From the NCBI RefSeq assembly GCF_000970205.1, contig NZ_CP009512.1, positions 3,844,001 to 3,908,000 of the forward strand: 64,000 nucleotides of DNA, read 5' to 3'. Source of the stretch: Methanosarcina mazei S-6 (GTDB lineage Archaea; Halobacteriota; Methanosarcinia; Methanosarcinales; Methanosarcinaceae). Of the stretch, positions 167 through 18,078 are shown in pieces. Position 1 is the stretch's first letter. Every line of letters starts with the position of its first letter. Position numbers and translations under genes: made by a program. The notes under the pieces are model-generated. The model was not told the DNA's origin and did no database searches. It was given only the letters and a program-made list of their open reading frames with translations.

Positions 167-1921
167 TCACCTCTCACTGTTAACCTGTATGGGAGTCGGG
201 TTTGCCAGATATTTCTCTGGAGTCGAGTAGTTGGCAAAACCAAGAGTGTAGTACCTGAACCACTCCTTCACGTCAACCAGCATTTCCTTTTCCCGCTCAT
301 TTTCAACATGCACTTCGGAATAGTAAGTCCTCTTCTCAGGCAGGGAAACGATCTCCCCTTTAACAGCCACTATTTCGCCGCCCTTCACAGTATATTCCGC
401 CTTCCTGAAGGTCCTGAGGAGGGCTTCGTAATTGTTTGCGTCAAGCTGCTGAGGGTTTATGTTGTAGACTGTAACATCTCCGTCCGCACCCACACCAAGA
501 GAGCCTTTTCTGTGGGCCATGCCGATTGTCTTTGCAGGGTTAGCCCTGGTCAGAATCGCCAGGTCGTAGAGAGAAAGCTCACGGTTTATGCCTCCCAGCT
601 CGCTCCTATCGTTTGCCCACTTGTGGCACTCACTGAAGGTCTGTTTCCTGAAAGCCTCGGACATGATCCAGGTCATAACCTCAGGGTATTTCGTAAACGG
701 CCCACCATTCGGGCTGTCCGTGGTCATGATAGTTTTCCATGGGTCTTTGATAAGCAGGAGACATTCAAGCCCCATTGCCCACTGCAAACTGTGCACAGGG
801 TTGGACTTGAGGTAGGTAAAGGGAAGGACACCTGAGCCGCATTCCATTTCAACATCAGTGTTCGACCACTTATTTCCTGTAAGGGTGTAAAGGTCATGAA
901 TGGCAGGCCCGTCTCCGGTCATAACTGTTGCTTCTCCGAAGGGAGTGCATCCGCTGTCGATTACCACATGATCTTTGTTGTTGATATAATCTGCAATATC
1001 CTTAACACCGGACTCGCAGTCCCCCCAGGTCGTGCCTGCAAAACTGTTGAACATCAGGTGGGTAAGGTATACCGAACGGTCCCTTGAAAGGTCCATTTTG
1101 GTTTCTGCCCACTCCACAGCCATGTTCTGTTTTGTCTTTACCCCATCAGGGATTTTGAGGGAATCCTTGGTAATTGCATAACAGCCAGGATGACCCAGGT
1201 TGTTCGCATGCAGGTGGACTGGCATAGGCATGCCGAGGGTCTCGTTAACCTCAGTAAGCCCCTTAATGACTTCTCTGGGAGTAATTTCGAAATGGATGTT
1301 GGTTTCGTCAAGAGTGCTGACGTTTTTACCCCATGCCCAGTTTTCGACTCCTGCGGGGTTGACGCATTTGATCCCGTAGGTCTTATGGGTCTTCATCATC
1401 CAGGCAACATAAGCAGCCGCCTTTTCCATATCCCCGTCCCTGAGGTAGCGCATAAGGAAAAAGTTGTTTCCGAGAACAAGGTACCCTCCCATGTCAAGAA
1501 GAGGAGTTGCACGCATCTCTTCATGGGTGTGGCGGGCTTCAAGAGGAGGAACTGCAGCTTCAAAAACAGTTGTGTAACCCATTGCTGCGTAATCATATCC
1601 CTGTTTGTAAACAGAAGGAACTGTATAGCCTGAACCGGAATGGGTGAGGGGAGTTTTCTTAAGGTTTGCTTTATAATGGTCTTCAGGGCGCATCGACCTG
1701 CCGGCATTAACCTTTGCACCGGCAACGTGAGAATGGGAGTCAACACCTCCTGGCATAACAGTCATTCCGGAGGCGTCAATTACCCTGGAAGTTTTCATCT
1801 CAGATGCAGAAAGCTCTTTTACGACTTTTCCGTCCCTGATGAAGATATCCATTTTTTCCCCGTTTATTTCGTTGAGGGGGTCAAAGACGTATCCGTTCTT
1901 GATTGCAATTGTTCCTGCCAT
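167..1921 (-). CDS. fmdA: Formylmethanofuran dehydrogenase subunit A (amidohydrolase fold)
   Basis: A 584-aa protein of the amidohydrolase superfamily. It carries an N-terminal metal-binding HSH (residues 63-65) after VMPGGVD and a Lys in YGIKCVNP near residue 185, which probably corresponds to the carboxylated lysine of the dinuclear zinc site known in FwdA. In the complex this subunit joins formate, made from CO2 at the Mo/W site, to methanofuran. The start codon follows directly on the TAA stop of fmdF with no spacer, and fmdC follows with its ribosome site overlapping the fmdA stop, so this is one transcription unit E-F-A-C. Length is normal for the family. Assignment as the Mo (fmd) rather than the W (fwd) isozyme is inferred from the gene order with fmdE and fmdF upstream. 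Confidence 0.95.
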   Translation of the reverse strand: MAGTIAIKNGYVFDPLNEINGEKMDIFIRDGKVVKELSASEMKTSRVIDASGMTVMPGGVDSHSHVAGAKVNAGRSMRPEDHYKANLKKTPLTHSGSGYTVPSVYKQGYDYAAMGYTTVFEAAVPPLEARHTHEEMRATPLLDMGGYLVLGNNFFLMRYLRDGDMEKAAAYVAWMMKTHKTYGIKCVNPAGVENWAWGKNVSTLDETNIHFEITPREVIKGLTEVNETLGMPMPVHLHANNLGHPGCYAITKDSLKIPDGVKTKQNMAVEWAETKMDLSRDRSVYLTHLMFNSFAGTTWGDCESGVKDIADYINNKDHVVIDSGCTPFGEATVMTGDGPAIHDLYTLTGNKWSNTDVEMECGSGVLPFTYLKSNPVHSLQWAMGLECLLLIKDPWKTIMTTDSPNGGPFTKYPEVMTWIMSEAFRKQTFSECHKWANDRSELGGINRELSLYDLAILTRANPAKTIGMAHRKGSLGVGADGDVTVYNINPQQLDANNYEALLRTFRKAEYTVKGGEIVAVKGEIVSLPEKRTYYSEVHVENEREKEMLVDVKEWFRYYTLGFANYSTPEKYLANPTPIQVNSER

Positions 1922-2962
1922 TTATTCCACCTCTTTTTTCACAAGCCTTATCGCATCAACAGGGCAGATAAGGGCACAGGTCCCATCTCCTCCGCAGCGT
2001 TCCTGGTTTACGACCGAAATTTTTCCGTTCTTAACCCCAAGAATAGCTTTTTCGTCCATGTCGTACAGGTAGCCTGCAGCAAGTTCACGGTTGTCGAATG
2101 CGTTTACAGGGCAGACAATCACACAGTTCCCGCAGCCAAGGCACGCATCATCATCAGTTTCAAGTTGGGTGCGAAGCGCATCTTCGGGGGCAGGGACTTC
2201 AATCAGCTTTTTCTCCAGGGGGCCCTTTTTCTCCATTTCCGGCAGAATTGCAGTTTTTCTGACGTCAATGGCATCAACAGGGCAGGCAACTGCGCATGCA
2301 CCACAGTAAATGCAGGCATCCGGCCGGTGGGTGATCTTTTCAACTCTTTCCCCGGACTTTGCCTTCTTATTGAAAATTGCATTTGCAGGACAGACATCAA
2401 TACAGGTATGGCAGGTCTGGCAGACATTCTCATCCCTGGACCAGCGTCCTTCAAAGGGCTTTTCCACAGAAATAGCATTTACAGGGCATACTGCAGCACA
2501 CCAGCCGCAATGGACACAGCATTCCGTATCAATATGGGTTTTTCCGATAACCTTCAGTTTCCCGTCCGTAGAAATTTCCCGGGTCACTTCAATACAGCCC
2601 TGTGAGCAGATATCTTCACAGAGACCACAGTGGACACAGCTTTCGTTTACTGATGTCGGCCTCATAGCCCTTGAAATATAGGACATGTCTGTGAGGGGTT
2701 TTCCTTCCTGTCTCAGTTCAAGAGCACCTGTGGGGCAGACTTTTGCGCAGATCCCGCAGACAAGGCAGTCTTCACTCTTTGCCATTTCCAGGAAATCCGC
2801 ATCCAGTAACCCTCTAGCTACAGCTCCCACAGCCCCTATGGAAAGGGTGCCTTTGGGACATGCCTGTACACAGGTCCCGCAGCCAATGCATTTTTCAGGC
2901 TGATAGACCAGCTGCCGGTCTTTTTTTTCGGAAAAGACTGACAATCGCATCTCATTTTGCAT
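1922..2962 (-). CDS. fmdF: Polyferredoxin of the formylmethanofuran dehydrogenase operon
   Basis: A 346-aa soluble polyferredoxin with eight cluster motifs spread from residue 25 to about 333. Seven follow CxxCxxCxxxC in the normal way. The last reads C323-x2-D326-x2-C329-x3-C333, with Asp in place of the second Cys, as in some archaeal ferredoxins whose cluster is Asp-ligated or converts to 3Fe-4S. The protein should carry electrons between ferredoxin or other donors and the active-site subunits of the dehydrogenase. The ATG at 2962 has a good ribosome site (GAGAGGT), 18 nt after the end of fmdE, and the gene abuts fmdA. FwdF of Methanothermobacter is the known homolog with many [4Fe-4S] clusters. 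Confidence 0.93.
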   Translation of the reverse strand: MQNEMRLSVFSEKKDRQLVYQPEKCIGCGTCVQACPKGTLSIGAVGAVARGLLDADFLEMAKSEDCLVCGICAKVCPTGALELRQEGKPLTDMSYISRAMRPTSVNESCVHCGLCEDICSQGCIEVTREISTDGKLKVIGKTHIDTECCVHCGWCAAVCPVNAISVEKPFEGRWSRDENVCQTCHTCIDVCPANAIFNKKAKSGERVEKITHRPDACIYCGACAVACPVDAIDVRKTAILPEMEKKGPLEKKLIEVPAPEDALRTQLETDDDACLGCGNCVIVCPVNAFDNRELAAGYLYDMDEKAILGVKNGKISVVNQERCGGDGTCALICPVDAIRLVKKEVE

Positions 2963-2980
2963 TTTATTTACCTCTCAACG

Positions 2981-3550
2981 TTATTCTGTGCATCCGCCGC
3001 ACAGCAGCTCATCATCATGTTGAACGAACATCTCACCACATTTTTTGCAGCACTGGATCCGCTTTTTCTTCCTGACCGGGACTTCCAGATCCACGGTTTT
3101 CCAGGAATAAACATTATCCCCGGCTTCCAGAAGGACAGGCACAACCTCTTCATGGTGTAGCTTTTCAGTGTTCAGGTACCAGGCATGAAGTTTTGGGTAG
3201 TCCTTTGTCTTTTCAGGGTCAAGGTAAATCCTGATGCCTATTATGCCCTTCATCCCTTCAGGTGCCTGTTTGTTCACCGTTACAGCCATCTTTCCCAGGT
3301 TATTGATTTTCAATCCATTGTTCCCGATGGTAGCTCCGGCAAGGATCTGGAAAGGGTCAGGCACGCAGCTTTTCGTTTCACAGGTTACGTATATGCGCTC
3401 TCCGTCCCGGACATCAAGCTCCCTCCTTGCAATATTGAGCATCTGGATGCCGATTAATGCCCCTGATGTCAGAAAGCCGTGAAAAGGGACGACCTTTTCA
3501 ATCTGTGAAAGCAGCTCAGGGTCTTTCACCTGCTTCAGGATTGTCTCCAT
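2981..3550 (-). CDS. fmdE: Formylmethanofuran dehydrogenase operon protein FmdE
   Basis: First gene of the operon. The protein (189 aa from the ATG at 3550) has the FmdE N-terminal domain (FHGFLTSGALIGIQM, then CETKSCVPD) and a C-terminal zinc-ribbon-like segment with CCKKCGEMF and LLCGGC. A longer reading frame opens with GTG at 3592, but that start has no visible ribosome site; the ATG at 3550 is preceded only by a weak AAGAGAAA, so the start is not certain. FmdE copurifies with or accompanies the dehydrogenase in other methanogens; its exact role is unsettled, with metal or cofactor handling suggested by the Cys-rich ends. Transcription probably begins just downstream of the palindrome at 3608-3631. 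Confidence 0.88.
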   Translation of the reverse strand: METILKQVKDPELLSQIEKVVPFHGFLTSGALIGIQMLNIARRELDVRDGERIYVTCETKSCVPDPFQILAGATIGNNGLKINNLGKMAVTVNKQAPEGMKGIIGIRIYLDPEKTKDYPKLHAWYLNTEKLHHEEVVPVLLEAGDNVYSWKTVDLEVPVRKKKRIQCCKKCGEMFVQHDDELLCGGCTE

Positions 3551-3607
3551 GCTGTGTTTCTCTTGATCGGAATTCTTATGCAATTGGTACACCGCCGCAG
3601 ATTTGAT

Positions 3608-3631
3608 CGTTATGTTTAAATAAACATAACG
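3608..3631. promoter_or_regulatory. Perfect 24-bp palindrome, ModE-box-like, at the fmd promoter
   Basis: Two 11-bp arms, CGTTATGTTTA and TAAACATAACG, are separated by AA and are exactly complementary. The site lies 58 bp upstream of the likely fmdE start. On the minus strand its centre reads TTATTTAA, which could serve as the TATA element, so a protein bound here would block or shape transcription initiation. The outline CG-N-TAT...ATAACG resembles, from memory, the operator of bacterial ModE at modA. A ModE-type gene is present at 17.3-17.9 kb. The palindrome is seen; its use as a ModE site is inferred. Confidence 0.7.
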
Positions 3632-3690
3632 CCAAAGATGTTGAATACAGACAGGTGAGTTTAATAAAGACAGGCGATATTCAGGAATTT

Positions 3691-3714
3691 AATTATGTAA
3701 ATTCCAACATAACG
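3691..3714. promoter_or_regulatory. Second ModE-box-like inverted repeat upstream of fmdE
   Basis: TTATGT (3693-3698) and ACATAA (3707-3712) form an inverted repeat inside a 24-bp window that ends in AACATAACG, the same half-site as the perfect palindrome 83 bp nearer to fmdE. The arms have the same spacing as in that palindrome. The middle is not conserved, which is expected for an operator. Two copies upstream of one operon fit cooperative binding. Confidence 0.55.
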
Positions 3715-4023
3715 CAGAAGGATACACTACTATATTTATAGATAACTTTTTGACAGAAACTTATATCTGGAGTACAATTCAGAGGAGTTTCAGGTTACGG
3801 TTTAAACAACGGGGGCCAAACTCCTCATGATTGGCAGGCTCATAAAAAAACACCAGCCAGAAGTCTACTGCTTCGGGATATGTAAAGCTCAACATATCTA
3901 TAAAATCGGAAGACAGGACTCTTGCGATTAAAATATATAAACAAGTGTTTTATAAAATTATCGATTAAGAAGACATTTTTCCTGAAAAAAGACAATATCG
4001 AAATAAAGAAAATACCTTTCTGA

Positions 4024-4074
4024 AAACATATAGTTTATAAAAATATATAGCTTATAAAAACATATAGCTTATAA
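4024..4074. repeat. Three tandem 17-bp repeats in the fmd-tup gap
   Basis: Three 17-bp units of the form AAACATATAGCTTATAA follow each other without spacer; the first has GTTTATAA instead of GCTTATAA and the second has a T for C. The array lies between the end of tupC and the fmd promoter region. The remainder of the 3551-4181 gap is AT-rich and holds the two ModE-like sites; I see no gene in it. Confidence 0.8.
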
Positions 4075-4181
4075 ATACAGTTGCCTTTTGAAAGGAAGAA
4101 ACCTGAGACCTCTGATCGATTTATTTGGTTCATGGTAAAAAGAGGAGAATTATCCTGAAAAACAAATTAATTTTTCATGGG

Positions 4182-5243
4182 TCAAAATACATGAACTGCA
4201 GATGCTTTAAAATATAACCAGATACTGGTTCCTATAGAAATATTGAGTTCATTAAGAGATTCGCGTGTTATAAAAACAGTGAATAATTCGCCGGTGTTTA
4301 CTGTTAGTTTTATAAGGGACCCGGTGTCAATTATTTCATCAACTTTACCCTGAATCGTATTTCTGGCACTGGTCTGTACCTTTTCCCTGGATATTGTTAT
4401 TTCATCAGGCCTTATAGCAAAATGGACTTTACCTTCTTTTTCCGTTACGGCAAATACAGTTATGGAATCTGTTTTAATTGCTGCCAGACCATTGGAACTG
4501 TCCTCAATTATACCGCTCATCAGGTTTTGAATACCAACAAAATCAGCCACAAATCTATTCTTCGGTTTTCTGAATATCTGATCAGGAGTTCCAGATTGAA
4601 GGATCTGGCCATTATAAAGTATGACCATATTCTCTGCAAGCCTCTGGCCCTGTAAAAGGTCGTGAGTGGTCATTATAATGGTTGTTTCGGATTCCCGGTT
4701 AATTTTCAGGATCAGTTCTTCAAGTTTCTTTTTAGAGATAGGGTCAAGATTTGCAGTTGGTTCATCAAGTAACAGTAACCTTGGTTCCGTAATCATTGCC
4801 CGTGCAAGTGCAAGCCTCTGGGTTTCGCCACCTGATAATTTAAGCGCGTTTCTGTTCTCGTAACCGGGAAGACCAATCATTTCGAGGAGTTCTTTGATTC
4901 TCCCGTCCATATTCTCTTTTCTTCCCCTGATTTTCAAACCATAAGCAATATTATCATAAACGCTTGCCTTAAAAGCAAGAGGTTTCTGAAAAACCATTCC
5001 AATTTGCCTTCTTACCTCCAGCCTGGTATTATTGGATTCATTGGCATCAGCGCCTTCAAAATACACCGTTCCAGAAGACGGTTTTTCCAGTAAATCGATT
5101 AATCTGAGCATAACAGTTTTTCCAGAGCCGGTCGGTCCAACAAGAGCAGTGCTGGTCCCCTTTTCTATTTGCAGGTTAATATTCTTCAGAACCTCAAGTT
5201 TTCCGTAATTTTTGTAAATTTCTTCCAATTCCACTATGTGCAT
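4182..5243 (-). CDS. tupC: Tungstate/molybdate ABC transporter ATPase, TupC/WtpC type
   Basis: A 353-aa ABC ATPase: Walker A GPTGSGKT at residues 36-43, signature LSGGE at 136-140, Walker B LLLLDE at 156-161 followed by the D-loop. After about residue 235 comes a C-terminal TOBE/Mop-like regulatory region (FAIRPDEITIS, then a beta-rich segment to the end), as in oxyanion importers whose activity is inhibited by bound molybdate or tungstate. It is the last gene of a three-gene minus-strand operon tupA-tupB-tupC, starting 28 bp after tupB. It powers uptake of the oxyanion captured by TupA. Tungstate versus molybdate specificity cannot be settled from sequence; the solute-binding protein is of the Tup family. 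Confidence 0.9.
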   Translation of the reverse strand: MHIVELEEIYKNYGKLEVLKNINLQIEKGTSTALVGPTGSGKTVMLRLIDLLEKPSSGTVYFEGADANESNNTRLEVRRQIGMVFQKPLAFKASVYDNIAYGLKIRGRKENMDGRIKELLEMIGLPGYENRNALKLSGGETQRLALARAMITEPRLLLLDEPTANLDPISKKKLEELILKINRESETTIIMTTHDLLQGQRLAENMVILYNGQILQSGTPDQIFRKPKNRFVADFVGIQNLMSGIIEDSSNGLAAIKTDSITVFAVTEKEGKVHFAIRPDEITISREKVQTSARNTIQGKVDEIIDTGSLIKLTVNTGELFTVFITRESLNELNISIGTSIWLYFKASAVHVF

Positions 5244-5271
5244 CGTTAAACCTGAACTAAGTTTTTTTGAA

Positions 5272-5961
5272 TTAATCCTTGCCCTGCAAATAGTTCAATA
5301 AGAAATTGATTATTAGAGACAGAGAAAGAAGTATAAACCCCAATGCTATAGAAAGCACCAGATTACCTCTGGATGTTTCAAGAGATATGGCTGTGGTAAA
5401 AGTTCTCGTAAAACCTCTGATATTGCCTCCAATAAGTATGGCGACTCCTACTTCTGATATAGCCCTTCCAAAACCAAGTATCACAGCACTCATTATAGCA
5501 TAACGGGCTTCTTTTATAATGGTAATTATTGTTTGGTATGTGCTGGCTCCAAGGGATATTGCCAGTTCTTTTATTTGAGTGCTGACCCCAACAAGGGCGG
5601 TGATAGTAAACCCGATGAGAAGAGGCAGTATTAGCAATACCTGCCCTATAATCATTCCAGTGGGAGTAAAAAGGAGTTTTAAAAACCCGAAGGGACCCTG
5701 CTGGGATATTAACAGGAAAAGGAAAAGCCCCACCAGAACTGTGGGAACACTGTAAAGGGTCTGGATCAGGTTTATTATTGTCCGTTTTCCCCAAAATTCA
5801 TAATAGTAGATCATTCCACCAATGGGAATCGATATTAATGAGCCTATCAGTGTTGCAGTTAACGAAATATAAAGGCTTAATTTCGTTATTTGAATCAGTT
5901 TTGGATCAAGTTCTACTATCAGTTCTATTGCCTGAAAAATTGCCAGAATAATTTCATTCAA
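5272..5961 (-). CDS. tupB: Tungstate/molybdate ABC transporter permease, TupB type
   Basis: A 229-aa integral membrane protein with five to six hydrophobic segments. The cytoplasmic coupling loop typical of binding-protein-dependent permeases is seen in the stretch ISLGASTYQTIITIIKEA, followed by GFGRAISEVG, which is well conserved in TupB permeases. The start is TTG at 5961 with the ribosome site AGGTGG just upstream; an ATG four bases downstream is out of frame. It lies between tupA and tupC and should form the channel of the importer. Confidence 0.88.
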   Translation of the reverse strand: MNEIILAIFQAIELIVELDPKLIQITKLSLYISLTATLIGSLISIPIGGMIYYYEFWGKRTIINLIQTLYSVPTVLVGLFLFLLISQQGPFGFLKLLFTPTGMIIGQVLLILPLLIGFTITALVGVSTQIKELAISLGASTYQTIITIIKEARYAIMSAVILGFGRAISEVGVAILIGGNIRGFTRTFTTAISLETSRGNLVLSIALGFILLSLSLIINFLLNYLQGKD

Positions 5962-6061
5962 ACGACCACCTGAACTTGATACACACTGTAATTTAGTGAT
6001 ATTATAGTTATCTCAGTTTCTTTGAGTTGCTCTGGCTAAAAAAATTGCAGGTTAACCATCC

Positions 6062-6988
6062 TCAGGATGGCAAACCTTCGGATATTGGGGTAAAGAGAGG
6101 CTCCCCGTATTGTTCCCTGCCAAAGTTTCCGATTATTTCCTGCCCTTCAGAGGAAACAAGGAAGTCTACAAAGTTTTGCGCACCTTCATAATTCACATTT
6201 GGATGCTTTTCTGGATTCACAGGCATAGCTGCATAAACATTAAGCAGTTCATCGCCTGCAGTCACTATTGGTACAATCTGTATCCTTCCTTCGTTCGTAT
6301 ATGCAAGAAATGTTCCGGAATCGGTTAAAGTATAAGCATTCTGTTCATTGGAAAGCAAAAGGGTTTCTCCCATGCCTCTGCCGCTTTCAATGTACCATTC
6401 ACCCGAACTATTAATTTCGCCATAACTTACTCCAGTACTTTCCCAGATTTTTTTCTCCCGTGCATGTGTACCTGAATCATCCCCACGAGAGGCAAACTTA
6501 ACCTGATCAGAATCATTCTGGCCTTCTTCCATTATCCTGGTAAATGCTTCCGTAGCGTTAAGACCATTTATTCCTGCAGGATCATTTTCAGGTCCTACAA
6601 TCCAGAAATAATTATATGCTATTTCCGTACGATTTGTACCGAATCCATTATTCACAAATTCTTCTTCCCGACTTTTGTCATGAGTAAGAAGAATATCAGC
6701 ATCTCCTCTTTCACCATACTGTATGGCTATTCCTGTGCCTCCGGATATAACCAGTACGTCCACTCCGGGATATTTATCCTCAAATGCTGCCTCTATTTCT
6801 TCCAGAAGCCCTGTGTCCTCCAGACTGGTCGTGGTAGAAACTATCAACTTTGAGGTCTCTGACTGTGCAGTTGTTGTAGTGTCCGGTTCTGTAATCGTTG
6901 TAGTATCTGGCTGCTGTTCGGTATCTGTGCATCCTGTTGCAAGGAATACGCTTAACAGGACCATCAAAATAAAAAATGCTTTTCTCAT
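6062..6988 (-). CDS. tupA: Tungstate-binding lipoprotein, TupA family
   Basis: The best start is the ATG at 6988 (308 aa), preceded by GGAGAAGAG; the reading frame is open 28 codons further upstream, but that extension overlaps the operator and lacks a signal-like start. Residues 1-20 form a lipoprotein signal ending in LATGC (lipidated Cys20). A Thr/Glu/Asp-rich linker follows (to about residue 47), then the TupA fold beginning LIVSTTTSLEDTG and the oxyanion-binding motif SRGDDSGTHARE near residues 167-178, both hallmarks of this family. The protein captures tungstate (possibly molybdate) outside the membrane and delivers it to TupBC. Regulation probably involves the ModE-like site at 7020-7043. 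Confidence 0.92.
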   Translation of the reverse strand: MRKAFFILMVLLSVFLATGCTDTEQQPDTTTITEPDTTTTAQSETSKLIVSTTTSLEDTGLLEEIEAAFEDKYPGVDVLVISGGTGIAIQYGERGDADILLTHDKSREEEFVNNGFGTNRTEIAYNYFWIVGPENDPAGINGLNATEAFTRIMEEGQNDSDQVKFASRGDDSGTHAREKKIWESTGVSYGEINSSGEWYIESGRGMGETLLLSNEQNAYTLTDSGTFLAYTNEGRIQIVPIVTAGDELLNVYAAMPVNPEKHPNVNYEGAQNFVDFLVSSEGQEIIGNFGREQYGEPLFTPISEGLPS

Positions 6989-7019
6989 ACTCTTCTCCAT
7001 ATAAAATAATATTTTAGTT

Positions 7020-7043
7020 AGAAATGTGTATTTGAACATAACG
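7020..7043. promoter_or_regulatory. ModE-box-like site upstream of tupA
   Basis: By eye this 24-bp window matches the perfect fmd palindrome at 17 of 24 positions, including the full half-site AACATAACG (7035-7043) and the left-arm core ATGT. It lies 32 bp upstream of the tupA ATG. A TATA-like TTAATAAATAA further upstream (about 7059-7069, minus strand) would place the transcription start at or near this site, a position suited to repression. The rest of the 6989-7303 gap is AT-rich without a visible gene. Confidence 0.55.
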
Positions 7044-7303
7044 AATATGGTCCTCAAGTTATTTATTAACAAATATTACAAAAAAAGTAAAAAAGAGATG
7101 CTGCGGGATAAATGCAAAAAACATTCTTAGAGAAAAATCAAAAATTGAGAGTTTTGATAAGCAGTTAAGTTCTTAAAAAACAGAACCCAGATTAGTTCAA
7201 TATTTGAAAAATGTTGACAATTAACGGAAAGAATTTAGCATTTTCATTCACCCATATCATTTCACATATGTCATTAATTAGCAATGCTGTTTCTCGTATC
7301 AAA

Positions 7304-7990
7304 TCAATCTACAAATTTGACAGTAGCTTTTTGTTCAGAAATGACATTCCTGCTTTTTCTGTCAATAATTTTCAGGGTTATTTCAGTACCTGCTTTGAAA
7401 CCGTAATTGTCAGAGGTGTTACCGTTCCCATTTACACTGACTACTACACTGGATTTAGCGGACTTTTTTGGGCTGTCCTGTCCGCAGAGGATAAGTCTCT
7501 CCCCGATATCCCAGGAGCCATCTTCAAGAGTGGCATTATTATTGGCAACGTAGTATTTTTGATTTTTTCTTTCCTGGCTCAGATCCATGTAAAGAACCTC
7601 TAAATTTCCTTCAGCTCTTTTTCCAGTCCCATTAGAAATGTTCCCCTGGAAAGAATTTCCATATCCGGAAATTTTTATAGAGATAGAGTCTGGTGAAAGG
7701 GAGTCTCCTCCCTCATGCATAAGAACAATCCGATTTTCTTTAAATGTGACCCAGTGGCTTGAATGGCCAACTCCATAAAGCCCTCCTTCACAGGATTCAA
7801 GATCTATATTTACAACAGGAGGCTGGAGATTCATTCTACTGCCAGAGAGGGCTACACTGCTAACAATTGCAGCCACGAGTATAAATGTAATCAGCAGAAG
7901 GAGAAGGGAGCCGATAACAGGAGAGAGACCTTCAGGTGAAGCCTTAAAGGAATTAAGAAATTTACATCGGACATTTCCCCACGCCTTCAT
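7304..7990 (-). CDS. Archaeal pilin-like protein (DUF1628-type N-terminus)
   Basis: A 228-aa protein with a positively charged N-terminus followed by EGLSPVIGSLLLLLITFILV, the class III (type IV pilin-like) signal of euryarchaeal adhesion pilins that is cut by the prepilin peptidase before the hydrophobic helix. The remainder is a beta-rich secreted domain with several N-glycosylation-like NxS/T sites. It stands alone on the minus strand, away from the pilus ATPase and platform genes at 59.6-63.3 kb, and could be a minor pilin or adhesin. No clear ribosome site was found before the ATG at 7990. Confidence 0.75.
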   Translation of the reverse strand: MKAWGNVRCKFLNSFKASPEGLSPVIGSLLLLLITFILVAAIVSSVALSGSRMNLQPPVVNIDLESCEGGLYGVGHSSHWVTFKENRIVLMHEGGDSLSPDSISIKISGYGNSFQGNISNGTGKRAEGNLEVLYMDLSQERKNQKYYVANNNATLEDGSWDIGERLILCGQDSPKKSAKSSVVVSVNGNGNTSDNYGFKAGTEITLKIIDRKSRNVISEQKATVKFVD

Positions 7991-17342: not shown

Positions 17343-17927
17343 TCAGTCTGTATCAGACCTTTTTGAGCCAGAATTTACAGGCTCTTTTTCACCGATGGCT
17401 TTTGCGACCATTACTTCTGTGGATTTTATGACCGCATAAATCCGGTCTCCTGGCTTTATGTCCAGTTTTTCGACTGCCTCCTCCGTAACCACTGAGGTAA
17501 GGACTGAAGGTTCAATCTCAATTGTGAGCTTGGAGACAAGCCCATTTTTCTCGACTTCAACTACTTTTCCGGGAAGCTTATTTCGGGCTGAAAGCTTGAA
17601 GCCTACATTTTCCCATGAGGTTTCGTCCCCTACAGCTTCATTAATCAGCTTTTTATTTGTTTCGTACTCAACAAGCAGTTTTCTTCCAAGATCAGTCAGA
17701 AAAGTTCCCTGGTCTTTTCCCCCACGTACAGTAACTACCGCAGGCTCGCCAAGAGCATCATTCATTTTTTTAAGCATCATCCAGGCATGTTTATAGGAAA
17801 TTCCAAGTTTCTGACAGGCTTTACGGAGGGAGCGTTCTTCGTCAATTGTTTTCAACAATTCGGCTCTGCCAGCCCCCATTACTGTCCTTCCATCTTCGGT
17901 AAACCAGAGCTTTGTTTTCGCTTTCAC
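17343..17927 (-). CDS. modE: ModE-type molybdate/tungstate-responsive regulator
   Basis: About 194 aa. The N-terminal half is the ModE-type winged helix: MGAGRAELLKTIDEERSLRKACQKLGISYKHAWMMLKKMN, then GGKDQGTFLTDLGRKLL. The C-terminal part (about residues 108-175) is one Mop/TOBE domain: SARNKLPGKVVEVEKNGLVSKLTIEI, then LDIKPGDRIYAVIKSTEVMVAK, the fold that binds molybdate or tungstate. E. coli ModE has two such domains, so this is a shorter single-Mop form. The GTG at 17927 is preferred because AGGTGAGGT lies directly upstream; another GTG at 17936 has no ribosome site. A natural target set lies within the window: the palindromes upstream of fmdE and tupA. Confidence 0.88.
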   Translation of the reverse strand: MKAKTKLWFTEDGRTVMGAGRAELLKTIDEERSLRKACQKLGISYKHAWMMLKKMNDALGEPAVVTVRGGKDQGTFLTDLGRKLLVEYETNKKLINEAVGDETSWENVGFKLSARNKLPGKVVEVEKNGLVSKLTIEIEPSVLTSVVTEEAVEKLDIKPGDRIYAVIKSTEVMVAKAIGEKEPVNSGSKRSDTD

Positions 17928-18078
17928 AGACCTCACCTTTTAGCGGAGTACATGAACAGAATTTGCCCTGAACCGGGCATAAACCCGGGCATCCGGAGAA
18001 ATATCCATTTTTTCTGCCGATTTCCAGGTTATAAGGGCATTCAGGGTGATTCCGCAGTTCAACCTTTACCCGGGACAA
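17842..18078 (-). CDS. Possible small Cys-rich protein overlapping modE
   Basis: A 78-codon reading frame starting with TTG (GGAG six bases before) and overlapping the first part of modE in another frame. It has six Cys in its middle (ECPY, SGCPG, LCPVQG, KFCSC, EVC). The first codons (SRVKVEL) read like the continuation of the decayed TOBE domain directly upstream, and the last part only mirrors modE. It may be a chance frame in a decaying region. I do not recognise it. Confidence 0.25.
   Translation of the reverse strand: MSRVKVELRNHPECPYNLEIGRKNGYFSGCPGLCPVQGKFCSCTPLKGEVCESENKALVYRRWKDSNGGWQSRIVENN

Follow-up and report, generated by a model that had tools for sequence, protein, structure and literature searches.

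Probable ModE operators at the promoter of the molybdenum-type formylmethanofuran dehydrogenase operon in Methanosarcina mazei

Results

The palindromic sites in front of the fmd operon are, taken as a whole, highly likely to be operators of an archaeal ModE whose gene lies 14 kb away in the same window (the whole stretch of DNA analyzed here, 64,000 nucleotides from a genome that is a single contig of 4,142,816 bases). Binding of ModE to these sites is the part of this interpretation predicted with the greatest confidence, and repression of fmd is a more cautious prediction that we favor by a modest degree. The fmd sites very probably belong to a family-wide set that is also found before metal-uptake, tungsten-enzyme, and nitrogenase genes. 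The operon follows tupABC (4182-7000) on the minus strand in the order fmdE, fmdF, fmdA, and the candidate start codons of fmdE are GTG 3592, TTG 3583, and ATG 3551 (Table 1).

Table 1. Genes, promoter elements, and operator-like sites in the window
Feature	Position	Strand	Description
fmdA	167-1921	-	Formylmethanofuran dehydrogenase subunit A; NCBIfam TIGR03121, above cut-off
fmdF	1922-2962	-	Polyferredoxin subunit; NCBIfam FwdF-like, below curated cut-off
fmdE	2981-3592	-	First gene of the Mo-type formylmethanofuran dehydrogenase operon; Pfam FmdE PF02663, E 7e-31
O1	3608-3631		Palindrome CGTTATGTTTA-AA-TAAACATAACG; predicted 5' leader, 15 nt upstream of GTG 3592
O2	3691-3714		CGTTATGTTGGAATTTACATAATT on minus strand; covers predicted fmdE transcription start
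P1 TATA box	3733-3740	-	TATAAATA; fmd operon core promoter; conserved genus-wide
Probable BRE of P1	3742-3752	-	AAAAAGTTATC; conserved
O3	3876-3899		GGATATGTAAAGCTCAACATATCT
Distal fmd-specific element	3934-3965	-	ATCGATAATTTTATAAAA...TTTATATA; O3 lies just downstream
tupC	4182-5243	-	ATPase of the transporter, with a TOBE domain at the C terminus; neighbor of fmdE on its upstream side
tupB	5272-5961	-	Tungstate transporter permease; NCBIfam TupB, E 3e-49, below cut-off
tupA	6062-7000	-	Tungstate-binding protein; NCBIfam TupA, E 3.8e-56, below cut-off; probable ATG 7000
ModE-like operator upstream of tupA	7020-7043		One good half-site
modE	17343-17936	-	Winged helix and single Mop (TOBE) domain; proposed binder of the fmd sites

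Three ModE-type sites precede fmdE

An initial annotation had described two inverted repeats at 3608-3631 and 3691-3714 that share an identical half-site and start 83 bp apart. Direct reading of the window confirmed both repeats (O1, CGTTATGTTTAAATAAACATAACG; O2, AATTATGTAAATTCCAACATAACG) and the common half-site AACATAACG, which occupies 3706-3714 in O2. The description of O1 as a perfect 24-bp palindrome needs correction, as its 11-bp arms flank a nonpalindromic AA and 11 of the 12 pairs match. A third site, O3, and the weaker site upstream of tupA were missing from that annotation. Against the degenerate pattern CGNTATRT-N8-AYATANCG, O1 has no mismatches and O2 and O3 have two each, so that all three sites in the 589-bp gap between fmdE and tupC match at ≤2 mismatches.

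Chance formation of palindromes in AT-rich intergenic DNA is a practically negligible explanation. The region has a GC content of 32%, and a palindrome of any sequence with 11 of 12 matching pairs arises in ∼0.3% of shuffles, but the specific motif behaves differently: among 5,000 dinucleotide shuffles of the gap, 4,975 had no match, 25 had one, and none had more. With the strict pattern CGTTATGT-N8-ACATAACG at ≤3 mismatches, the window had 3 matches compared to a mean of 0.11 in dinucleotide shuffles, none of which reached 3. Chance is already refuted by conservation across the genus, on which the initial annotation had staked its proposal: O1 is kept at ≤2 mismatches in 24 of the 27 Methanosarcina fmdE loci compared. 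As for the others, the locus in G026 is an additional fmdE copy whose own site lies farther upstream, that in G019 has a degenerate site (in a genome that is 81% complete and in which ModE is represented by a C-terminal piece only), and no site was found at the fmdE locus of G021.

Of the 27 loci, 15 have O2 at ≤3 mismatches and 79 to 88 bp from O1. An insertion of ∼120 bp separates the two sites in the barkeri-like clade, where only the left half of O2 is kept. We considered DNA looping fixed by helical phase, as the commonest spacing corresponds to ∼8 turns, but O1 and O2 are 118 bp apart in the sister genus genome G036 and 202 to 207 bp apart in the barkeri-like clade, and strict phasing is therefore unsupported. 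Three sites also precede fmdE in G036, and the one at the place of O3 is a full palindrome (CGATATGTTTAATAAAACATATCG), which backs O3 as an operator.

Promoter architecture of the fmd operon

The sequence AAAAAGTTACCTATAAATACAGTG...TATCCTTCTG-CGTTATG is nearly invariant across the genus. Its BRE/TATA portion (AAAAAGTTACCTATAAATACAGTG), ∼110 bp farther upstream than O1, is the most strongly conserved part of the region; TATCCTTCTG and then O2 lie next to it in the direction of fmdE. Transcription is predicted to start near 3708-3712, within O2 and ∼25 bp from the TATA center. Because the conserved BRE/TATA lies at 3733-3752, O2 would cover the predicted start and O1 would lie in the leader. The palindrome had originally been thought to overlap the TATA element. 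We evaluated O1 as a TATA-bearing core promoter and rejected it, as its center differs among species (TTTATTTAAAC, TTTAAGCCAAC, CTGAACATAC, and TTAGATACAAC) whereas the BRE/TATA of P1 is nearly invariant. In two species of the barkeri-like clade (loci L087 and L091), tandem copies of the BRE-like sequence AAAAAGTTACCTT lie upstream of the fmd TATA box.

Farther upstream, the distal element varies little or not at all among 24 fmdE loci and is present in G036 as well. Each of five genomes scanned has a single copy of it (3949-3965 in the window, before fmdE), and ATCGATAATTTTATAAA therefore does not define a regulon. It may instead be a second fmd promoter. A short transcript with O3 as a hairpin could arise on the minus strand between this element and the T-run CTGGCTGGTGTTTTTTT (3840-3935). 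A search against Rfam returned no RNA family within 2500-7500, including the fmd leader.

The candidate regulator

The ModE-type gene previously placed at 17.3 to 17.9 kb was verified at 17343-17936. The N terminus of its product is a LysR-like winged helix (Pfam HTH_1 above the cut-off; PDB 2ijl, 1b9m, and 1o7l), and the Mop domain is recognized as TOBE and by NCBIfam Mop, the latter above its cut-off. The SARN motif (S116-A117-R118-N119) and the residues of the recognition helix and wing (I46, S47, Y48, K49, A51, and W52; R71, G72, and G73) are invariant in 24 orthologues, and the helix and wing residues are mostly shared with bacterial ModE. While E. coli ModE has two Mop domains, the Methanosarcina protein has one; a second tandem Mop (di-Mop) was not found, and the single TOBE domain makes this a short ModE architecture. 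The NCBIfam model of the ModE DNA-binding domain (ModE_repress, TIGR00637) scores 61.4 bits, below its cut-off of 98.5.

A structure predicted from the ModE sequence by itself was of low quality (mean pLDDT, 36.5). A model based on the alignment of the 24 orthologues is usable for the winged helix only, and the closest solved structures to it are chains of E. coli ModE; its TM-scores are low because the domain arrangement is not reliably modeled. The DNA-binding form of E. coli ModE is the oxyanion-loaded one, and both molybdate and tungstate serve as ligands. The structures include tungstate-bound (PDB 1h9r) and molybdate-bound (PDB 1h9s) forms.

The archaeal motif compared to the E. coli ModE box

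The E. coli ModE box consensus is quoted in PMC545781 as ATCGNTATATA-N6-TATATANCGAT. Written as CGNTATAT-N8-ATATANCG, it shares an 8+8+8 layout and a 24-bp core with the archaeal CGTTATGT-N8-ACATAACG. The archaeal sites resemble the E. coli modABCD operator in their CG-N-TAT half-sites and in their position before molybdate transport genes. Unlike in the E. coli box, the half-site here and across the family reads TATGT instead of TATAT, and the TATATA inner half-site does not occur. Because TATGT is a consistent variant, "E. coli-type box" would be the wrong name, and we infer a ModE-type operator. The variant half-site, the single Mop domain, and the NCBIfam score below the cut-off all count against the ModE reading.

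The motif co-occurs with ModE

Among 31 Methanosarcina genomes, the motif matched 178 times at ≤2 mismatches, compared to 17 matches for a reversed control pattern, and was present in 29 of them. Family-wide, the motif was present at ≤1 mismatch in 86 of 112 genomes, and the control matches totaled two. The 86 genomes comprised 85 of the 100 in which ModE is full or nearly full and 1 of the 12 without ModE (Fisher test, P = 1.5e-7, not corrected for relatedness, with a single genus contributing six of the 12). The only ModE-less genome with the motif, G111, is 83% complete. Of the 15 genomes with ModE but no match at this stringency, six were rescanned at ≤2 mismatches, and all six were positive. 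One match (G000, position 1398621) was discarded for its broken core (CGTTATTT), as were nifK-like matches in G001 and G009 that lie inside coding sequence. In G017 (C80 and C30), a 92%-complete Methanosarcina genome, there are fmdE remnants with several stop codons, no full-length ModE, and no motif, an apparent joint loss of fmdE, ModE, and operator.

These data bear on the alternative that a different transcription factor, one that also controls Mo/W genes, binds the palindromes and that the presence of ModE is coincidental. A half-site one position off the E. coli consensus would fit such a factor, as would the Methanoperedens relatives in which ModE is ∼50% identical and most fmdE promoters are without the motif. 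The known geometry of the ModE box, the co-occurrence with modE, and the classical ModE targets that form the regulon make this alternative improbable.

Genes behind the motif

A genome-wide motif survey, proposed in the initial annotation as a check, found the motif before mod, wtp, tup, nif-type, fmd, and fwd genes. In Methanosarcina, the sites precede modA, modA2, wtpA, nifH-type nitrogenase iron protein genes, fwdD, and class III binding-protein genes, and in other genera of the family, modA, wtpA, modD-like, and MolA-like genes. Such a gene lies behind the site in 18 of the 20 family loci examined outside the genus (several identified by HMM and others from N-terminal sequence only), and no obvious Mo/W gene was found behind it in the remaining two (L200 and L217). 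The operator is situated 0 to 22 bp downstream of a TATA-like box at modA, modA2, wtpA, and molA. Within the window, the operator upstream of tupA is weaker than the fmd sites (3 mismatches to the strict pattern and 2 to the degenerate one); it is shared with G027 and was not found in the other three genomes with tupA of ≥84% identity.

In its PDB sequence matches, the class III binding protein has MolA (HI_1472; PDB 3psa) as the second best (E 1.4e-24), after 4pag, an unnamed periplasmic binding protein. MolA of Haemophilus influenzae binds molybdate and tungstate; the methanogen protein is similar by sequence, and its ligand is putative. At the MolA-like class III genes (L170:400-1518, L141, L147, L174, L179, L187, L202, and L209), which usually precede a methyltransferase-like gene, the ModE-type operator touches the TATA box. 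They are candidate Mo/W uptake systems of methanogens. ModD-like (NadC-related) genes also lie behind operators (L181:594-1397, L188:1638-2429, L201:1947-2738, and L206:402-1193), and both the modD and nadC models score below their cut-offs on them. At an operator at position 1499 of L134 (G001), an exact CGTTATGTATGAATGAACATAACG precedes a small ORF without a family match and a gene for an Sta1/Lrs14-like regulator.

At fwd, each of the nine genomes examined has the operator just upstream of the TATA box (TATATAATAAAA), ∼500 to 690 nt ahead of fwdD. A protein at this position could act as an activator or could block TFB. The fwdD loci L139, L143, L167, L171, L173, L177, L180, L182, and L191 have a leader of ∼500 to 650 nt after the TATA-like box.

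The placement of the sites also bears on whether O1, instead of being a DNA operator, is an RNA hairpin in the fmd leader whose 11-bp stem lies next to the ribosome-binding site. O1 does lie in the predicted leader near the start codon and would form a strong stem if transcribed. However, the sequence itself is kept, beyond its pairing, where transcription is unexpected (upstream of the fwd TATA box and abutting the wtpA and molA TATA boxes), and the motif tracks modE. We regard the hairpin as very improbable, more so than an unrelated transcription factor.

Discussion

The ModE interpretation of the fmd palindromes in the initial annotation holds for ModE-type sites that are found genus-wide and are common to Mo/W genes, but it does not hold for the overlap with the TATA element. 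In the mechanism that we propose, a ModE dimer would bind the CG-N-TATGT half-sites of 24-bp palindromes, three of which precede fmdE. Oxyanion-loaded ModE at O2 would block the start complex, O1 in the leader would add a second block, and O3 would be occupied upstream. At the uptake genes, protein bound 0 to 22 bp downstream of the TATA-like box would likewise block the start complex. Repression is favored at fmd because the geometry of O2 equals that at the uptake genes, with the additional block by O1 in the leader. Counting against this, it would be physiologically odd for a Mo-loaded regulator to repress a Mo enzyme.

ModE might instead bind and activate fmd in a Mo-induced manner, for example, from O3 or a distal promoter. 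E. coli ModE activates some Mo-enzyme operons, O3 lies upstream of P1, the distal element is conserved, and the fwd operator is upstream of its TATA box. Furthermore, the Mo isoenzyme of Methanothermobacter is made only with molybdate (PMC3087415). With O2 over the predicted start and O1 downstream, an arrangement like that at the uptake genes, which are expected to be repressed, we consider activation possible but rather unlikely. A similarly doubtful extension of repression is an isoenzyme switch, in which oxyanion-loaded (perhaps tungstate-loaded) ModE would repress fmd, activate fwd, and shut uptake and alternative nitrogenases. Here, fwd would be activated from the site that directly adjoins its TATA box on the upstream side, and fmd would be repressed through its covered start site. 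Such a Mo/W switch is conceivable because the fwd operator, unlike O1 and O2 at fmd, lies upstream of the TATA box.

The statement in the initial annotation that no ModE operator is established in methanogens was too strong. Archaeal ModE sites were proposed earlier (Studholme & Pau 2003, BMC Microbiol 3:24), and according to excerpts of PMC9765008, modABC is under the control of ModE in Methanosarcinales, and ModE also has an effect on nitrogenase regulation. No mention of fmd as a ModE target was found in those excerpts or in the title of Studholme & Pau 2003 and statements citing it. As far as these parts of the earlier study indicate, its sites are of the same kind and concern the same regulator family, while the three-operator layout, the promoter geometry, and the family-wide test come from the present analysis. 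The system differs from that of E. coli in its TBP/TFB promoters, in the three operators at a formylmethanofuran dehydrogenase operon, and in the marking of the tungsten-type fwd, all with predicted sites.

As with Tfx and fmdECB in Methanothermobacter (PMC3087415), a DNA-binding protein would act on a Mo formylmethanofuran dehydrogenase operon from a position downstream of its promoter. Unlike in Methanothermobacter, where tfx directly precedes fmdECB (PMC3087415), no tfx was found directly before the fmd operon; tupC occupies the next upstream position, and the sites are of the ModE type. Transcripts of fmd1 and fwd1 were 14- to 15-fold higher on methanol than on acetate (PMC2838876). The same study described the control of the pathway genes as unknown and oxyanion modulation of fwd1 and fmd1 as still under study.

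Archaeal ModE sites are a kind known before, and what is new here is a detailed, testable architecture of the fmd promoter. For Methanosarcina, which carries parallel Mo- and W-type formylmethanofuran dehydrogenases, the sites provide a candidate regulator, exact operators, and targets, making the choice between the Mo and W enzymes directly testable in genetically tractable organisms, with opposite promoter geometries predicted at fmd and fwd. The sites also point to the MolA-like uptake genes and modD of methanogens as members of the same regulon, and a single DNA code for Mo sensing would serve both bacterial and archaeal promoters.
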